This document shows positions 2,511 to 56,890 of a stretch of DNA of 64,000 bases, piece by piece. Source of the stretch: an uncultured Lachnospiraceae bacterium (GTDB taxonomy: Bacteria; Bacillota; Clostridia; Lachnospirales; Lachnospiraceae); NCBI GenBank assembly GCA_947243855.1, contig CAMXIK010000013.1, positions 1 to 64,000 of the forward strand, given 5' to 3'. The translations under genes were made by a program, and so were the position numbers. Every line of letters begins with the position of its first letter. Within the stretch, counting starts at the first letter, position 1. The notes under the pieces are model-generated. The model saw only the letters and a list, made by a program, of their open reading frames with translations, had not been told where the DNA came from and did no database searches.

Positions 2511-2676
2511 GAACTTTTGTTTTTGTAATGACACGATGATATAATAAGAATATGTAAATATCAGCATTATTTTAAAAGAAGAATGTTTACTATTTGACTG
2601 ATTTTCCACGGATATGAAACTCAATATTTCTTATCTGTGTGAAATTACTTGACTATATATGGAGGTAATGTGACAT

Positions 2677-3846
2677 ATGGAAAATTATGCCTTTTACAAT
2701 GAAATCATGGAATTACTTTCTAGGGGGCGTGAAGGACCATATTGGGATTATAAAAGTGATTATCCCGATTGCCCAGAGGATAAGCTAAAAGATATAATTT
2801 GCATGGCAAATAATCTTGAAAACAGAGACGCTTATTTGATTTATGGAGCAAATAATGACGGAAGTATATGTGGTATAGAAAATACAAGAATGTCACGAAT
2901 ATCTTCAGCGGGATTGACGGAATTTTTAAGAACGAAACCATTTGCTGGAGGATATTACCCACAAACAGATGTAAAGACTATAAATGCAGGGGAGCATCAA
3001 CTTGATATAGTCATTATATATAATAGCAGACATACGCCATATTACTTACAAGTAAAATACGAAAAAGGACATGATGTGAAAAAACATTTAACGCCGGGGA
3101 CAATTTATACTCGTGTATTTGACGCAAACACACCCACGAATAAGACGGCAAGTATTGAGCAGACAGAGTATCTTTGGAGAAAACGATTTGGTTATGATTT
3201 GACTCCATTTCAAAGATTACTTAATCTATTGGAGACACCAGAACGATGGTCGAAAGTGAACTGGGATAGTTGTCGACATAGTTATAGTTTGGAATTCCCA
3301 GAATTTCAAATTATAATTGAAGAGTCAAAAAATGGATATGAAGAATTGGCATATTTTTACGATAATGAGACAATGTTCTATGCTCCATTAAAAATCAATT
3401 ATCTGTCCACCACGCTATATGAGACAGAGTTGTGGTATATGGATGAGGCACGTTGTCTTATTACTTTGCCAGAGAGTAAACATATGGATAATCAACATAT
3501 TCTTTATTATTATATTTTAAAAGACAGCATAAATGGAAAACTTTTACCATTTTTTAATTATGGGAAATTTCAATGTCATAATCGGTCTGGAGCAGAAATG
3601 CCAATATTATTATTCCGTAATAAAATGGAACAAGAAGAATTTGAATTATGGATAAATAATAATCCGGCTGAGATAAAATCGGTAGAAGAAAAACTAGAGA
3701 ATAATGCAATTTTTGAGCATATACTCATCAAGTCAAATCATGATGGATTTGTCAGAGAAGATGGAATAAGAGAAATCGCTATTTCATATGGACTGTATAA
3801 AAAGTGGGGGAGAGGACTATGTGACGGGAGAGGTTTTATAATGTAG
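2677..3846 (+). CDS. Schlafen/AlbA_2 domain ATP-binding protein, C-terminus frameshifted
   Basis: 389 residues. The N-terminal ~150 residues match the AlbA_2 (Schlafen-like putative nucleic-acid/ATP-binding) domain: an early acidic YWDYKSDYP segment, ICMANNLENRDAYLIYGANNDGSICGI and a later basic stretch. The C-terminal ~230 residues are not recognised. The frame ends abruptly at ...CDGRGFIM, but a +1 shift at the T-run 3834-3837 restores an open frame that continues GFYNVVCEIIERK... for about 22 more codons to a TAA at 3903-3905. The gene has therefore lost its native end or carries a homopolymer sequencing error. GGAGG at 2661 supports the start. Schlafen-type proteins are common defence cargo on mobile elements. 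Confidence 0.75.
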   Translation: MENYAFYNEIMELLSRGREGPYWDYKSDYPDCPEDKLKDIICMANNLENRDAYLIYGANNDGSICGIENTRMSRISSAGLTEFLRTKPFAGGYYPQTDVKTINAGEHQLDIVIIYNSRHTPYYLQVKYEKGHDVKKHLTPGTIYTRVFDANTPTNKTASIEQTEYLWRKRFGYDLTPFQRLLNLLETPERWSKVNWDSCRHSYSLEFPEFQIIIEESKNGYEELAYFYDNETMFYAPLKINYLSTTLYETELWYMDEARCLITLPESKHMDNQHILYYYILKDSINGKLLPFFNYGKFQCHNRSGAEMPILLFRNKMEQEEFELWINNNPAEIKSVEEKLENNAIFEHILIKSNHDGFVREDGIREIAISYGLYKKWGRGLCDGRGFIM

Positions 3847-52905: not shown

Positions 52906-52984
52906 AAACCTCCAAATCAATCAAGGAAATTCTTTGTGTAAAATCTGGTGGATTCTGTTATAATGTAAAAAAAGGTTGGAGGTT
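52906..52984. repeat. Inverted repeat bracketing the toxin-antitoxin promoter
   Basis: AACCTCCAA (52907-52915) and TTGGAGGTT (52976-52984) are a perfect 9-bp inverted repeat; the right arm contains the antitoxin ribosome binding site. The left arm extended, AAACCTCCAAA (52906-52916), recurs as a direct repeat at 53499-53509 behind the toxin gene. Confidence 0.75.
52934..52964 (+). promoter_or_regulatory. Promoter of the toxin-antitoxin pair
   Basis: TTGTGT (52934-52939), a 19-bp spacer, and TATAAT (52959-52964) with an upstream TG (extended -10). Confidence 0.65.
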
Positions 52985-52988
52985 GGCC

Positions 52989-53177
52989 ATGTCAAAACAG
53001 CAGATGATTGCAAATTTGATTTCTACTGCACCAGAGAATAAATTGGATATTATTCTTTCATTTGTGGAATTTGTATTGAGAGAAAGTACAGATTTGGATA
53101 ATATGCTTTTGAGTGAACCGAGTCTTTCTGCTGATTGGATGCTTGAGGAGGAGAATGTGGCATGGAAAGATTTGTAA
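52989..53177 (+). CDS. Antitoxin of a MazF/PemK-type pair
   Basis: 62 residues. N-terminal helical part (KQQMIANLISTAPENKLDIILSFVEFVLRES) of the DUF2281-like type and an acidic, Trp-containing C-terminal tail (SADWMLEEENVAWKDL), as expected for the part that wraps around a MazF toxin. GGAGG six bases upstream. It overlaps the toxin gene by 16 bp, the normal coupling of such pairs. The family assignment of the DNA-binding half is uncertain; the antitoxin role comes from position and tail. Confidence 0.8.
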   Translation: MSKQQMIANLISTAPENKLDIILSFVEFVLRESTDLDNMLLSEPSLSADWMLEEENVAWKDL

Positions 53178-53497
53178 AAGGTGATGTGATTGTTCTTCCG
53201 TTCCCTTTTACAGATTTAAGTTCAGCAAAGAGAAGACCGGCGGTTGTTTTGGCTGATATTAGAGGTGATGATTATATTATGTTACAAATCACCTCTAAAA
53301 ATGTGAAAGATAGCTATGCGATTTCACTATTATCGACGGATTTTATTTCTGGTTCTCTCAAGACGGACAGTAATGTACGTCCAAATAAAATTTTTACTTT
53401 GAACAGGCAGCTTATTTTATATAAAGTTGGACATTTAAGTGAAGAAAAAATAAGGGAATGCGTCAACAGAGTGTGCGAAATAATTCAGAATGAATAG
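53162..53497 (+). CDS. MazF/PemK family endoribonuclease toxin
   Basis: 111 residues. PemK/MazF fold: KGDVIVLPFPFTDLSSAKRRPAVVLAD at the start with the conserved R-P-A-V, ITSKN, and S-x-LKTDSNVRPNKIFTL in the position of the catalytic Thr/Ser region. It cleaves single-stranded mRNA when free of the antitoxin. The ribosome binding site GAGGAGGAGA lies inside the antitoxin gene. Confidence 0.9.
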   Translation: MERFVKGDVIVLPFPFTDLSSAKRRPAVVLADIRGDDYIMLQITSKNVKDSYAISLLSTDFISGSLKTDSNVRPNKIFTLNRQLILYKVGHLSEEKIRECVNRVCEIIQNE

Positions 53498-53551: not shown

Positions 53552-55078
53552 TTACAGGGTCACAACCTTTGTTGCAGCTTCTTCCCGAAACCGCACGTCA
53601 TGCTCCACAAAGAGAAGCGTTGGCTGATATTCCAGAATTAATTTTTCAATCTGCATTCTGGAAAATACGTCGATATAGTTGAGCGGTTCGTCCCAGATAT
53701 AAAGATGGGCGGGCGTGAGCAGGCTCGCCGCAATCAATGTTTTTTTCTTCTGCCCCTCCGAGTAGTCTTCCATATTTTTGGAAAACTGAGTCCGCTCAAA
53801 ATCAAGCTGCCTGAGAAGCGTACAAAACAACGTGTAATCCAGTCCCCGCTCTTTACAGAATGCGGAAAGAGAGCCTTTCAGACCGGAGGTATCCTGATTG
53901 ATATAGGAAATGATCAGTCCGGATGCCGTTTCGCAAACGCCGCTCTCTGCGATGGGAAGTCTCTCTTTGGAGTATCCTGATTTTTGCAGAATCATTTTGA
54001 TGAGTGTGGATTTCCCGCAGCCGTTTTCCCCGTGCAGGGCAACCCGGTCTCCCAGACAGAGTTCAAAGGTCAGGCCGCGAAAGAGGGGATTGTCTGCACC
54101 TGAATATTGCAGGCTGTAGTCCCGAACGTTCACAAGCCTTTCTTTGTGATGGGAGAGGGGTGTGAGTTTTAAGTCGGCAGGCGTTTCCAGATCCTGTAAA
54201 AGTCCCTCCTTTTCCTCAATTTCCCGATCAATTCTATTTGCCATCTGTGAAACCCGGCTTTGCATCTTTTTCGTTTTTGCGCCAATATAGGCCCGTGCTC
54301 CTTTGCAGCGGTCATGTTCCTTGACCGGATCGAAACCGATTTTTGTGCGCTCGTTTTGGTCAGCCCAGTCCGAAGCGCGTTTGGCCGCTTTTTTCAGTTT
54401 TTGTATTTCTTTCAGATGTTTTTCGTTTTCCGCTAGATCAAATTGGTCTTTGCGCTGTTTGTTTTCCCACCAACTAGAGAAGTTACCACTCTGCACTTCG
54501 ATGGTCCGTCGGTTTAATACCAGTACATGGTCGATGCTGGCATCTAGAAGATCCCGGTCATGGGACACCAGAATAAAGCCTTTTTTGGAGGCAAGATAGG
54601 TTTTGACCGCCTCTCTGGCATGGCTGTCCAAGTGGTTTGTGGGTTCGTCTATCAGCAAAAAGTCATTTTCACCAGAAAATAAAACCGCCAGCAAAAGCTT
54701 TGTCTGTTCCCCGAAACTTAAGGTTTGGTAAGGGCGGTAGAGAATTTCCGCCGTTTCCCCCAGCTCGGCAAGCTCGCAGATCACCCGCCATTCCTCGCAG
54801 TCCGGTTTGAGCTCTCCGATAAAGCCGGAGGCTGGAAGCCGTTTTTGTTCCTCCGTTACATGATAGGGAAAATAGTCAAAGACGGTTCCAGCGCTGATGC
54901 TGCCCTGATAAGGGAAATCGCCGCTAAGCAGACGCAGGAAGGTAGTTTTTCCTTTGCCGTTTCGTCCGAGAAATCCCAGCTTCCAATTCGTATCAATGGA
55001 AAAAGATACATTTTCGAAGACGGCGTCGAAACTGCCTTCGTAGGAAAATGTCAGATTGGTTACGTTTATTTGTGCCAT
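53552..55078 (-). CDS. ABC-F ribosomal protection protein (Lsa/CplR-like)
   Basis: 508 residues. Two ABC domains without membrane segments. Domain 1: Walker A GRNGKGKTT near 40, signature LSFGEQ, Walker B LLIDEPTNHLD. Domain 2: Walker A GENGCGKST near 355, signature YSEGQ, Walker B IWDEPLNYID. The basic interdomain linker (about 195-280; KRKDQFDLAENEKHLKEIQKL...) is the antibiotic-resistance tip that reaches the peptidyl-transferase centre. Antibiotic-resistance ABC-F proteins displace lincosamides, streptogramins A and pleuromutilins. The start at 55078 follows GGAAAGGAGAG. Its long leader carries an attenuator, as is usual for inducible members. Confidence 0.93.
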   Translation of the reverse strand: MAQINVTNLTFSYEGSFDAVFENVSFSIDTNWKLGFLGRNGKGKTTFLRLLSGDFPYQGSISAGTVFDYFPYHVTEEQKRLPASGFIGELKPDCEEWRVICELAELGETAEILYRPYQTLSFGEQTKLLLAVLFSGENDFLLIDEPTNHLDSHAREAVKTYLASKKGFILVSHDRDLLDASIDHVLVLNRRTIEVQSGNFSSWWENKQRKDQFDLAENEKHLKEIQKLKKAAKRASDWADQNERTKIGFDPVKEHDRCKGARAYIGAKTKKMQSRVSQMANRIDREIEEKEGLLQDLETPADLKLTPLSHHKERLVNVRDYSLQYSGADNPLFRGLTFELCLGDRVALHGENGCGKSTLIKMILQKSGYSKERLPIAESGVCETASGLIISYINQDTSGLKGSLSAFCKERGLDYTLFCTLLRQLDFERTQFSKNMEDYSEGQKKKTLIAASLLTPAHLYIWDEPLNYIDVFSRMQIEKLILEYQPTLLFVEHDVRFREEAATKVVTL

Positions 55079-55133
55079 ACGCATCTCTCCTTTCCGATGC
55101 TCCTTTGCAGGCGGAGACAAGTAAAGCTCCACA

Positions 55134-55164
55134 GCAAAAAGAACTGTCCGCCGCCAAACAGTTC
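55134..55164 (-). terminator. Intrinsic terminator in the ABC-F leader
   Basis: On the minus strand GAACTGT (from 55164 to 55158), loop TTGGCGGCGG, ACAGTTC (55147-55141), then TTTTTG (55140-55135), 57 bp before the start codon. A terminator inside a 5' leader indicates attenuation. Confidence 0.8.
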
Positions 55165-55333
55165 CATTACATACCCGATAACCTCATAAGGAGTGACGCC
55201 GTCAAAGACCGTAACGACAAACGATGACACACAAAAAGAGAGGTTATGAGAACATAATCCACTTTTGGCGACATGAAAACAGTGTGGGAAAAGCTGTCCC
55301 CACTGTGAAAACCTTCATGAAATCAAAAGTAGA
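55165..55333 (-). promoter_or_regulatory. ABC-F leader with alternative RNA helices
   Basis: After the three-codon upstream ORF the minus transcript contains AATCTACTTTTG, which pairs (one G-U) with CAAAAGTGGATT about 60 bases later; inside sits a second stem CATGAA...TTCATG around ACAGTGTGGGA/TCCCCACTGT. Downstream, CTCATAACCTC can pair with GAGGTTAT just before the terminator. A ribosome paused on the upstream ORF would disturb the first helix and could shift the pairing. A 438-bp interval without other genes. Confidence 0.65.
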
Positions 55334-55345
55334 TTATTTCTTCAT
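55334..55345 (-). CDS. Three-codon leader peptide (Met-Lys-Lys)
   Basis: ATGAAGAAATAA on the minus strand, 31 bp downstream of the -10, behind a very strong binding site (GAGGAGAGAGGTGAAAGG). Its stop is 255 bp before the ABC-F start codon. Three-residue upstream ORFs followed by a terminator control the Listeria ABC-F gene lmo0919; the same drug-induced stalling logic is inferred here. Confidence 0.7.
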   Translation of the reverse strand: MKK

Positions 55346-55375
55346 CCTTTCACCTCTCTCCTCAAAGATAAAGCT

Positions 55376-55404
55376 ATTTTATCATCGCTGGTTCTTTGTG
55401 TCAA
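55376..55404 (-). promoter_or_regulatory. Sigma-A promoter of the ABC-F leader
   Basis: On the minus strand: TTGACA (55404-55399), a 17-bp spacer, TAAAAT (55381-55376). Confidence 0.9.
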
Positions 55405-55516: not shown

Positions 55517-56890
55517 ATGAAGATGAAACTATATGATAAAAAACAGATTGCTTGGGAAACGGTTTTGTTTGATAACAGAACATTATTCTGGCTGCTTTTG
55601 CCGATCATTATAGAGCAGTTTTTGAACTCCCTTATGGGCATGGCGGATACGATGATGGTTTCGACTGTCGGAAGCGAGGCGATATCGGCAGTATCGCTTG
55701 TGGATTCGATCAACAATCTTGTCATTCAGATCTTTTCGGCAATGGCATCTGGCGCAACCATCATTTGTTCACAATATATCGGCAGCGGGAATAAAAAAGA
55801 AAGTAACAGGGCGGCGGGACAGGTTGTGTTTATGGTGCTTGCTATTTCACTTTCGATCACGGCGTGTTGTATGTTGGGCGGAGAACGGCTCTTACGACTG
55901 ATCTTCGGAACAGTGGAGGACTCCGTCATGGAAAATGCATTCATTTATTTTATGATAACGGCATTTTCCTATCCATTTTTAGCATTGTTCAGCGCGGGCG
56001 CGGCGTTTTACAGGGCATCCGGTAACGCAAGATTTCCGGCGAAGGTGTCTGTTATTTCCAATGTGATCAATGTGGCGGGAAACGCATTGTTTATCTATGC
56101 TTTTCATTGGGGCGTTGCAGGAGCTGCCTTTGCAACGCTTTTAGCAAGAGTTTTTTGTACGGTCGTGGTTTTTTACTGCCTAAGAAAGCCAAAGCAGACA
56201 ATCGTAGTAAGGGACTATCTGAAAATTCGTCCCGATATGGCGTTGATATTAGCGGTTATGGCAATTGGCGTTCCGGCGGGAATTGAAAACGGCATGTTTC
56301 AGTTTGGAAAACTTGCCGTTCAGTCCACGGTTTCGACGATGGGTACAATAGCTATGTCGGCGCAGGCAATGACGAATATTTTGGAGAATGTGAACGGCAT
56401 TTTCGGAAATAGCGTGGGGATTGGCCTGATGACGGTGGTCGGCCAGTGTATTGGTGCCGATAGGAAGGAAGAAGCAAAATATTATATGGTAAAGCTGATG
56501 GGTATTGCGGGGATTGGTACACTCGTATCCTGTCTTTTGGCGCTGGCAATTACAAAGCCAGTGACATGGCTTGCGGGCATGGAGCCTGCGGCAGCGGAGA
56601 TGTGTTTTGAGTTGGTGGCAGCTATGACGGTGATTAAGCCTTTTATTTGGGTAGGCGCGTTTGGACTTCCGTATGGACTTCGGGCAGCGGGCGACGTAAA
56701 ATTTTCGATGATAGCTTCCGTCTGTATTATGTGGGGCTGCCGTGTGGCGCTCGGTATCGTTCTCGTAAGGGTGTTTCAATTTGGACTAATGGGAGTGTGG
56801 ATTGGTATGTTTGCGGACTGGATTGTCAGGGCGGTTGTATTTACGACGAGGTTTGTGAACGGGAAGTGGCTTCGTTATAAGATATCTTAA
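55517..56890 (+). CDS. MATE family efflux transporter
   Basis: 457 residues, twelve membrane segments. MATE signature helices LLPIIIEQFLNSLMGMADTMMVSTVGSEAISAVSLVDSINNL-type start (seen at 28-70 in pieces) and a similar second half from about 250 (GIENGMFQFGKLAVQSTVSTMG). Multidrug/Na+ or H+ antiporter of the DinF-like group. The ribosome binding site is weak (AGGAATAA). It lies divergently from the ABC-F gene. Confidence 0.92.
   Translation: MKMKLYDKKQIAWETVLFDNRTLFWLLLPIIIEQFLNSLMGMADTMMVSTVGSEAISAVSLVDSINNLVIQIFSAMASGATIICSQYIGSGNKKESNRAAGQVVFMVLAISLSITACCMLGGERLLRLIFGTVEDSVMENAFIYFMITAFSYPFLALFSAGAAFYRASGNARFPAKVSVISNVINVAGNALFIYAFHWGVAGAAFATLLARVFCTVVVFYCLRKPKQTIVVRDYLKIRPDMALILAVMAIGVPAGIENGMFQFGKLAVQSTVSTMGTIAMSAQAMTNILENVNGIFGNSVGIGLMTVVGQCIGADRKEEAKYYMVKLMGIAGIGTLVSCLLALAITKPVTWLAGMEPAAAEMCFELVAAMTVIKPFIWVGAFGLPYGLRAAGDVKFSMIASVCIMWGCRVALGIVLVRVFQFGLMGVWIGMFADWIVRAVVFTTRFVNGKWLRYKIS

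Follow-up and report, generated by a model that had tools for sequence, protein, structure and literature searches.

The ABC-F gene of this uncultured Lachnospiraceae bacterium is preceded, on the minus strand of the window (the whole 64,000-nucleotide stretch of DNA analysed here), by a leader that we read as a ribosome-mediated transcription attenuator, with a probability of roughly 0.8. Its anatomy, its conservation and the predicted folding of its relatives support this reading and agree with the attenuator layout that the first-pass annotation had suggested. The kind of switch is already known from the vmlR and cplR leaders, but the leader family itself is apparently undescribed. New are the family, which has no Rfam match, and a probable arrangement of tandem terminators, T1 and T2, served by one switch strand, which makes the layout distinct; by sequence, the leader also stands ahead of a non-Lsa ABC-F gene, a kinase-acetyltransferase, a lone acetyltransferase and a MATE pump.

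The features of the element are collected in Table 1. A consensus promoter, a very strong binding site followed by ATG-AAG-AAA-TAA, and a large structured leader with mutually exclusive helices had all been proposed on the minus strand, and all were recovered. The extended −10 sought in the leaders is TGNTANNNT. The binding site, GAGAGAGGTGAAAGG, stands directly before the three-codon upstream ORF (uORF), and the Shine-Dalgarno region pairs with CCTCTC in the 3' arm of hairpin T1. Binding site, uORF and TCTACTTTTG together form strand 1, whose partner in T1 is strand 2 (CAAAAGTGGATTATGTTCTCATAACCTCTC). Strand 3 (GAGGTTAT...ATGTAATGGAACTGTTTGGC) can form about 30 pairs with strand 2. Of the pairings 1:2 (T1), 3:4 (T2) and 2:3 (the antiterminator), the last would be mutually exclusive with both a full T1 and a full T2. 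The intrinsic terminator that had been placed 57 bp before the gene is indeed present (57 bases separate the end of T2 from the ABC-F ATG at 55078), but it is probably the second of two, T1 also ending in a U-tract.

Table 1. Features of the leader and of the gene behind it (window positions).
Feature	Position	Strand	Basis
Promoter TTGACA-17-TAAAAT	55376..55404	(-)	11/12 consensus matches
uORF Shine-Dalgarno region GAGGAGAGAGGTGAAAGG, also 5' basal arm of hairpin T1	55346..55363	(-)	sequence
Three-codon uORF ATG-AAG-AAA-TAA (Met-Lys-Lys)	55334..55345	(-)	sequence and conservation
TCTACTTTTG, remainder of strand 1 past the stop codon; partner CAAAAGTGGATTAT	55324..55333	(-)	alignment, pair counts
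Strand 2 GTCGCCAAAAGTGGATTATGTTCTCATAACCTCTC, T1 3' arm and antiterminator 5' strand	55238..55272	(-)	pairing analysis
U-tract of T1, probable first terminator	55233..55237	(-)	5 T in window
Strand 3 GAGGTTATCGGGTATGTAATGGAACTGTTTGGCGGCG, antiterminator 3' strand, takes in T2 5' arm and loop	55149..55185	(-)	duplex energy
Intrinsic terminator T2 and U-tract, GGAACTG..CAGTTC-TTTTT	55136..55165	(-)	terminator scan
Shine-Dalgarno sequence of ABC-F gene	55085..55090	(-)	sequence
Lsa-like ABC-F gene, 508 aa	53552..55078	(-)	NCBIfam and PDB matches

The product of the gene passes the NCBIfam model for ribosomal protection-like ABC-F proteins (NF000355, 425.8 bits for a cut-off of 380) and has Lsa(A) as its best PDB match (7nhk, E 3.8e-111), as expected of the ABC-F resistance gene that had been called at this place. 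It is 53% identical to plasmid Lsa(E) and matches Lsa_all (NF000167) over its full length with 615.2 bits, below the curated cut-off of 750; by sequence it is thus Lsa-like and falls short of a named-Lsa assignment. A MATE efflux gene (55517-56890, plus strand) begins divergently from the leader's promoter region. At the other side, a PemK/MazF-like toxin gene (52983-53497, plus strand) is convergent with the end of the ABC-F gene, and a small ORF upstream of it, without a Pfam match, is perhaps an antitoxin.

Simple scans of the stretch gave 4 promoter-like matches (shuffle mean 2.8) and 4 terminator-like matches (shuffle mean 2.7), both within chance, so that the case for the element rests on its fold and on comparison. 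The window's leader folds at −109.6 kcal/mol (z −4.85), and one of 100 shuffles was equally good. For the comparison, the genome collection yielded at least 576 homologous loci, of which the best 80 were taken. The leader was found upstream of the ABC-F gene in 72 of these 80, which gives 73 leaders when the window is added. Module A was missing from L016, L033, L052, L074 and L076; L075 and L080 had fewer than 100 bases upstream; and L004, where strand 2 and T2 are kept and strand 1 is not recognisable, was counted among the loci without module A.

The uORF is strongly conserved. Its start place holds ATG in 66 leaders, TTG in two and GTG in one (a start codon in 69/73), and a GAGG, GGGG, GGAG or AAGG word lies 4-17 nt before it in 70/73. 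A three-codon frame is present in 68 of the 73 leaders, window included, and ends with TAA (64) or TAG (4). It mostly encodes M-[R/K]-[R/K/I]: codon 2 is R in 38 frames, K in 27 and T, Q or S in one each (R or K in 65/68), codon 3 is R in 47, K in 14, I in six and E in one, and MRI is encoded by six of the 68. The five non-standard uORFs have two codons (L013), another frame (L020, L023) or seven codons (L024, L029); in these last two the frame opens to seven codons and ends at the conserved ACTTTTGA. An extended −10 was detected in 65 of the 70 scanned leaders (window included; L020, L022 and L023 omitted), compared with 6% of shuffles, and 64 of 68 placements lie 33-40 nt before the uORF start, from which the transcript would begin about 25 bases before the uORF. 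At least 6 T within some 8 bases follow T1 in 67 of 69 leaders, and a T2-like hairpin with a T run is found in 56 of the 58 leaders with the module. Thus, although the promoter and terminator scans were at chance level, conservation across the leaders confirmed the element.

Codon 2 also takes part in T1: AGA and AGG make a pair there, whereas lysine codons break the same pair, which is formed in 31 of 56 leaders (pair 29:23). That a basic codon is kept despite the lost pair, together with CGA or CGG at this place in five loci, argues for selection at the codon level. Alternatively, a liking for A-rich second codons could give a similar pattern.

We then looked at the pairings themselves, in 56 of the 58 loci that have both strand 2 and strand 3 (L004 and L022, which has a run of N, were excluded when pairs and folds were counted). 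An RNAalifold consensus built from 31 sequences contains 35 base pairs, six of them with two-sided changes. For T1, 1742 of 1904 cells were paired, compared with 0.48 to 0.63 of cells when the strands were slid. Row shuffles matched this value (0.915 observed; shuffle average 0.907, top 0.916), meaning that T1 pairing reflects mostly conservation and not covariation. Mapped on the protein tree, double changes within one branch kept a T1 pair in 11 of 14 cases, compared with 3 to 7 in six slid controls; seven of them, G-C/A-U compensations, sit on one pair of the binding-site region adjoining the U-tract side, where the alignment is least certain.

For the antiterminator, counted without the 11 of 69 leaders that failed the T2-module test, the window's 2:3 duplex reached −34.6 kcal/mol, whereas dinucleotide-shuffling the downstream stretch 500 times gave a mean of −21.8 and −33.8 at best. 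Over the 58 loci native duplexes averaged −32.1 kcal/mol, compared with −29.2 (sd 0.31) when strands were swapped between loci; none of 5000 such permutations was as good, a contrast that relatedness inflates. In the 2:3 pairing 1514 of 1680 cells were paired, higher than in each of 300 row shuffles. Same-branch changes kept the pairing in 8 of 12 cases on the protein tree, and four slid controls kept 2 to 6. Changes on either side kept it in 103 of 214, little above the slid strands (88-105 of 228-239); the covariation signal for the antiterminator on the tree is modest. By pairing and covariation, the uORF hairpin T1 is a predicted anti-antiterminator that overlaps the uORF.

The attenuator would work as follows. 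Without drug, ribosomes would complete the uORF and depart, T1 would form, and transcription would stop at T1 or, failing T1, at T2. A peptidyl-transferase drug (a lincosamide, pleuromutilin or streptogramin A, the protection spectrum of Lsa-type proteins) would hold the ribosome at the uORF start, where it would cover strand 1 and bar T1. The freed strand 2 would then capture strand 3 ahead of the synthesis of the T2 3' arm, and RNA polymerase would read through into the ABC-F gene, whose product would clear the ribosomes and so shut the switch again. We infer the drug specificity and the read-through from this arrangement.

Transcripts ended ahead of the T2 3' arm were folded either free or with the span of a ribosome at the uORF start kept from pairing. 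When free, T1 formed with at least 15 pairs in 48 of 56 leaders; the antiterminator already had at least 15 pairs in 10 of 56, two of these with T1 too. When blocked, the antiterminator formed with at least 22 pairs in 52 of 56 (29 pairs in the window). At equilibrium, the blocked whole leader of the window has 29 antiterminator pairs and no T2. Overall, T2 persists with at least 6 pairs in 44 of 56 blocked whole leaders, alongside at least 12 antiterminator pairs in 30 of the 44, few in three and none in 11. These folds mean that T2 opens cleanly in the window and that most relatives need strand 3 captured before T2 is complete; full antitermination in most relatives would thus lean on a kinetic argument, in which strand 3 is transcribed earlier than the 3' arm of T2. 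The free whole leader of the window shows just 14 T1 pairs and 11 strand 2:3 pairs beside T2, and in a longer cut of it T1 closes all the way to the base.

Hairpin T1, long and interrupted, presumably acts as a terminator. Instead, T1 could be an anti-antiterminator only, with T2 as the sole working terminator, a plausible alternative to which we give appreciably less than an even chance. Hairpin SL-1 fills the anti-antiterminator part in vmlR, according to the accessible text of PMC9226507, and the U-tract of T1 is weak in a few relatives (for example CTTCTTTTATG in L025); it is nevertheless the near-universal T-rich tail given above that one would have to set aside. In addition, the 11 leaders that fail the T2-module test, among them that of the close relative L002, all keep strands 1 and 2, so that termination in them may fall to T1 by itself. 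Judged by eye, at least 5 T stand right behind strand 2 in 10 of these 11. TTTGGCA, which is complementary to strand 2, is retained in five of them and TTCCGGCGAC in a sixth; with such strand 3 remnants in six of the eleven, some are worn-down modules and not true absences. In a further variant (L014), the end of T1 and the whole of T2 are gone and strand 2, the T1 3' arm, continues into the binding site of the ABC-F gene. The uORF strand could there hide the binding site of the gene, which looks like a shift from transcription to translation attenuation.

Within strand 3, a conserved ATG-TAA (55172-55167) could be a second, start-stop uORF holding a ribosome over T2. It is preceded by a GAGGTT-like sequence and ATGTAA occurs in 42 of 58 leaders, but in 13 of 58 one of ACG, ATA, ACA, GCA or GCG stands in place of the ATG, and in one more GTG does; the same bases belong to the antiterminator, where some changes track strand 2 (L077 has GCG with TATGCC). 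With 13 of 58 leaders lacking ATG, GTG or TTG and with the antiterminator accounting for the bases, we rejected this unlikely candidate. A leader that binds a small molecule or a protein directly, the uORF being incidental, is still less probable: a long conserved RNA ahead of a resistance gene might suggest it, but Rfam 15 gave no family in the leader at gathering scores (its sole match in the window being a tRNA elsewhere), the alternative helices and the uORF account for most conserved bases, and start and stop are kept as codons. Finally, it is highly improbable that the hairpins are plain terminators of the divergent MATE gene or of an upstream transcript, without regulation, for although the element is partly palindromic and its plus strand also scores (47.1 bits), the minus strand scores 145.5 bits with the model, the plus-strand element stands upstream of the MATE gene and not behind it, the conserved promoter sits just ahead of the uORF, and an ABC-F gene lies behind the element in 43 of 48 further loci.

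The ribosome-mediated attenuator was also compared with known leaders. The lmo0919 leader of Listeria contains a three-residue ORF. That leader of lmo0919/vgaL, rli53, is described in the accessible text of PMC11550727 as an attenuator that responds to lincomycin and stands ahead of an ABC-F gene, much as is proposed for the window. For vmlR, cplR, are5sc and others it is established that drugs stall the ribosome on a very short uORF, according to the text available from PMC9226507, PMC10201436 and PMC12421871. The first-pass annotation had not recognised the Met-Lys-Lys uORF, but it is not so isolated: the published ABC-F leader uORFs include MIN (vmlR), MR[I/M] (cplR) and MK[L/Q] (vmlR2), as given in the accessible text of PMC10201436, and a CplR-like leader (L168) also encodes Met-Lys-Lys. 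The vmlR leader of Bacillus subtilis (MIN) shares with ours a three-codon uORF in an anti-antiterminator hairpin, an antiterminator, an intrinsic terminator and an ABC-F protein acting against lincosamides and pleuromutilins (PMC9226507, accessible text). In contrast, vmlR is described in the same text as having one terminator and a hairpin sequestering the Shine-Dalgarno sequence, whereas here the uORF hairpin bears a U-tract; strand 3 here also takes in the T2 loop, and the gene subfamily differs, the two leaders being likened by description.

The cplR leader of Clostridioides and Clostridium is alike in its three-codon uORF with a basic second residue (PMC10201436, accessible text), although the window's MKK falls outside the cplR-type consensus MR[I/M]. 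According to the same text, the cplR terminator sequesters the gene's own binding site, whereas here T2 ends at 55136 and the gene site lies further on; here, moreover, it is T1 that takes in the binding site of the uORF. CplR-like matches were found in 24 genomes, none of which had a match over the model's cut-off, and 12 loci were examined. Four of the 12 leaders have a three-codon uORF (MKR, MKK, MRN, MRI), then TAATCC, with a GTGGAT arm downstream, which resemble the window's TAATCTACTT and AAGTGGATTA. Shuffles as good as this sensor core numbered 0/60 in three leaders and 1/60 in L168. No such core was found in the other eight of the 12, some of which perhaps have a misplaced gene start, and covariance model R1 fell below E 0.05 in one of the twelve loci (L169, E 0.006). 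The sensor core thus seems common to some CplR-like leaders, while the terminators differ. At L128 (G265, 2586-2731, minus strand), the leader of a different ABC-F gene carries ATGAGAAAATAATCTATTT together with an arm that matches it, and scores 43 bits with R1; this leader may link the window's family to the CplR-type leaders. The leader of the Lsa-family gene lsa(A) has a different uORF peptide, MAGN (PMC10201436, accessible text), and R1 found no match upstream of plasmid lsa(E) (L165). No description of the window's leader was found in the accessible text of the literature, including the RNA catalogues PMC11109978 and PMC8632094 and the premature-terminator catalogue PMC2965389.

Genome scans with R1 found one element in the bacterium's own genome, where at E 0.1 no further copies appeared but an opposite-strand echo. 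In the family sample, 49 of 397 genomes had the element. Under the stricter filters used for the class and phylum samples, it was present in 2 of 391 genomes (the window's own and one of the same genus) and in 1 of 398 (the window's own), respectively. Outside the family, two Ruminococcus flavefaciens loci carry the leader (L032, L047). Among cultured relatives, a Roseburia hominis strain has it as well (L056). We rejected a location on mobile DNA: the leaders of the window and of L035 had no match in plasmid and phage collections, and a 30-base consensus had no exact match in viral contigs.

Looking at the genes behind the element in the 48 family-sample loci other than the window, at least eight of which were judged to be contigs already represented in the set of 80, we found an Lsa-type ABC-F gene (56-76% identity) in 41 and a non-Lsa ABC-F gene (23-24% identity) in two, L121 and L128; the non-Lsa arrangement recurs in another two genomes from the genus of L121 (L159, L161). 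The remaining loci are of several kinds. In L091 (1726-2997) the leader is followed directly by a fusion of a PRK06761-like P-loop protein with a GNAT acetyltransferase, an ABC-F start is followed by remains of a kinase-acetyltransferase in L085, a lone GNAT is found in L089, and a MATE gene comes after an ABC-F remnant in L115. In L090 nothing clear is near the element, and a metallophosphoesterase gene lies at a greater distance; the proteins of L115 and L090 were checked against Pfam. At E 1e-20 no ABC-F relative was found in the genomes of L090 and L115 (G048 and G334); that of L091 (G200) has only a 32% match, and that of L089 (G051) a 53% match elsewhere in the genome. The GNAT and MATE cases could represent either a second regulon or remnants after loss of the ABC-F gene.

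A wider reading, which we hold tentatively and at slightly under even odds, is that the leader is a portable Lachnospiraceae drug sensor, in which one ribosome-released strand turns off two serial terminators, and that it now precedes unrelated genes (Lsa-type and non-Lsa ABC-F, the PRK06761-like P-loop-GNAT fusion, the lone GNAT and the MATE pump). Standing before them, the sensor would mark these genes, including some without a known part in resistance, as defences against drugs that target the ribosome. Since the sensor is conserved and searchable, resistance genes could be found by their leader instead of by their protein, and the ribosome-mediated attenuator would add gut-type commensals to the organisms with drug-switched ABC-F resistance. 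For the P-loop part of the kinase-acetyltransferase no named function was found in the two libraries searched, and the P-loop-GNAT protein is a candidate drug-modifying enzyme. A PRK06761-like P-loop protein is also encoded in L121 (2034-2840) and, within the 2000 bases fetched, downstream of the ABC-F gene in seven of the 80 homologous loci (L019, L037, L040, L044, L049, L050, where it is in two pieces, and L059).
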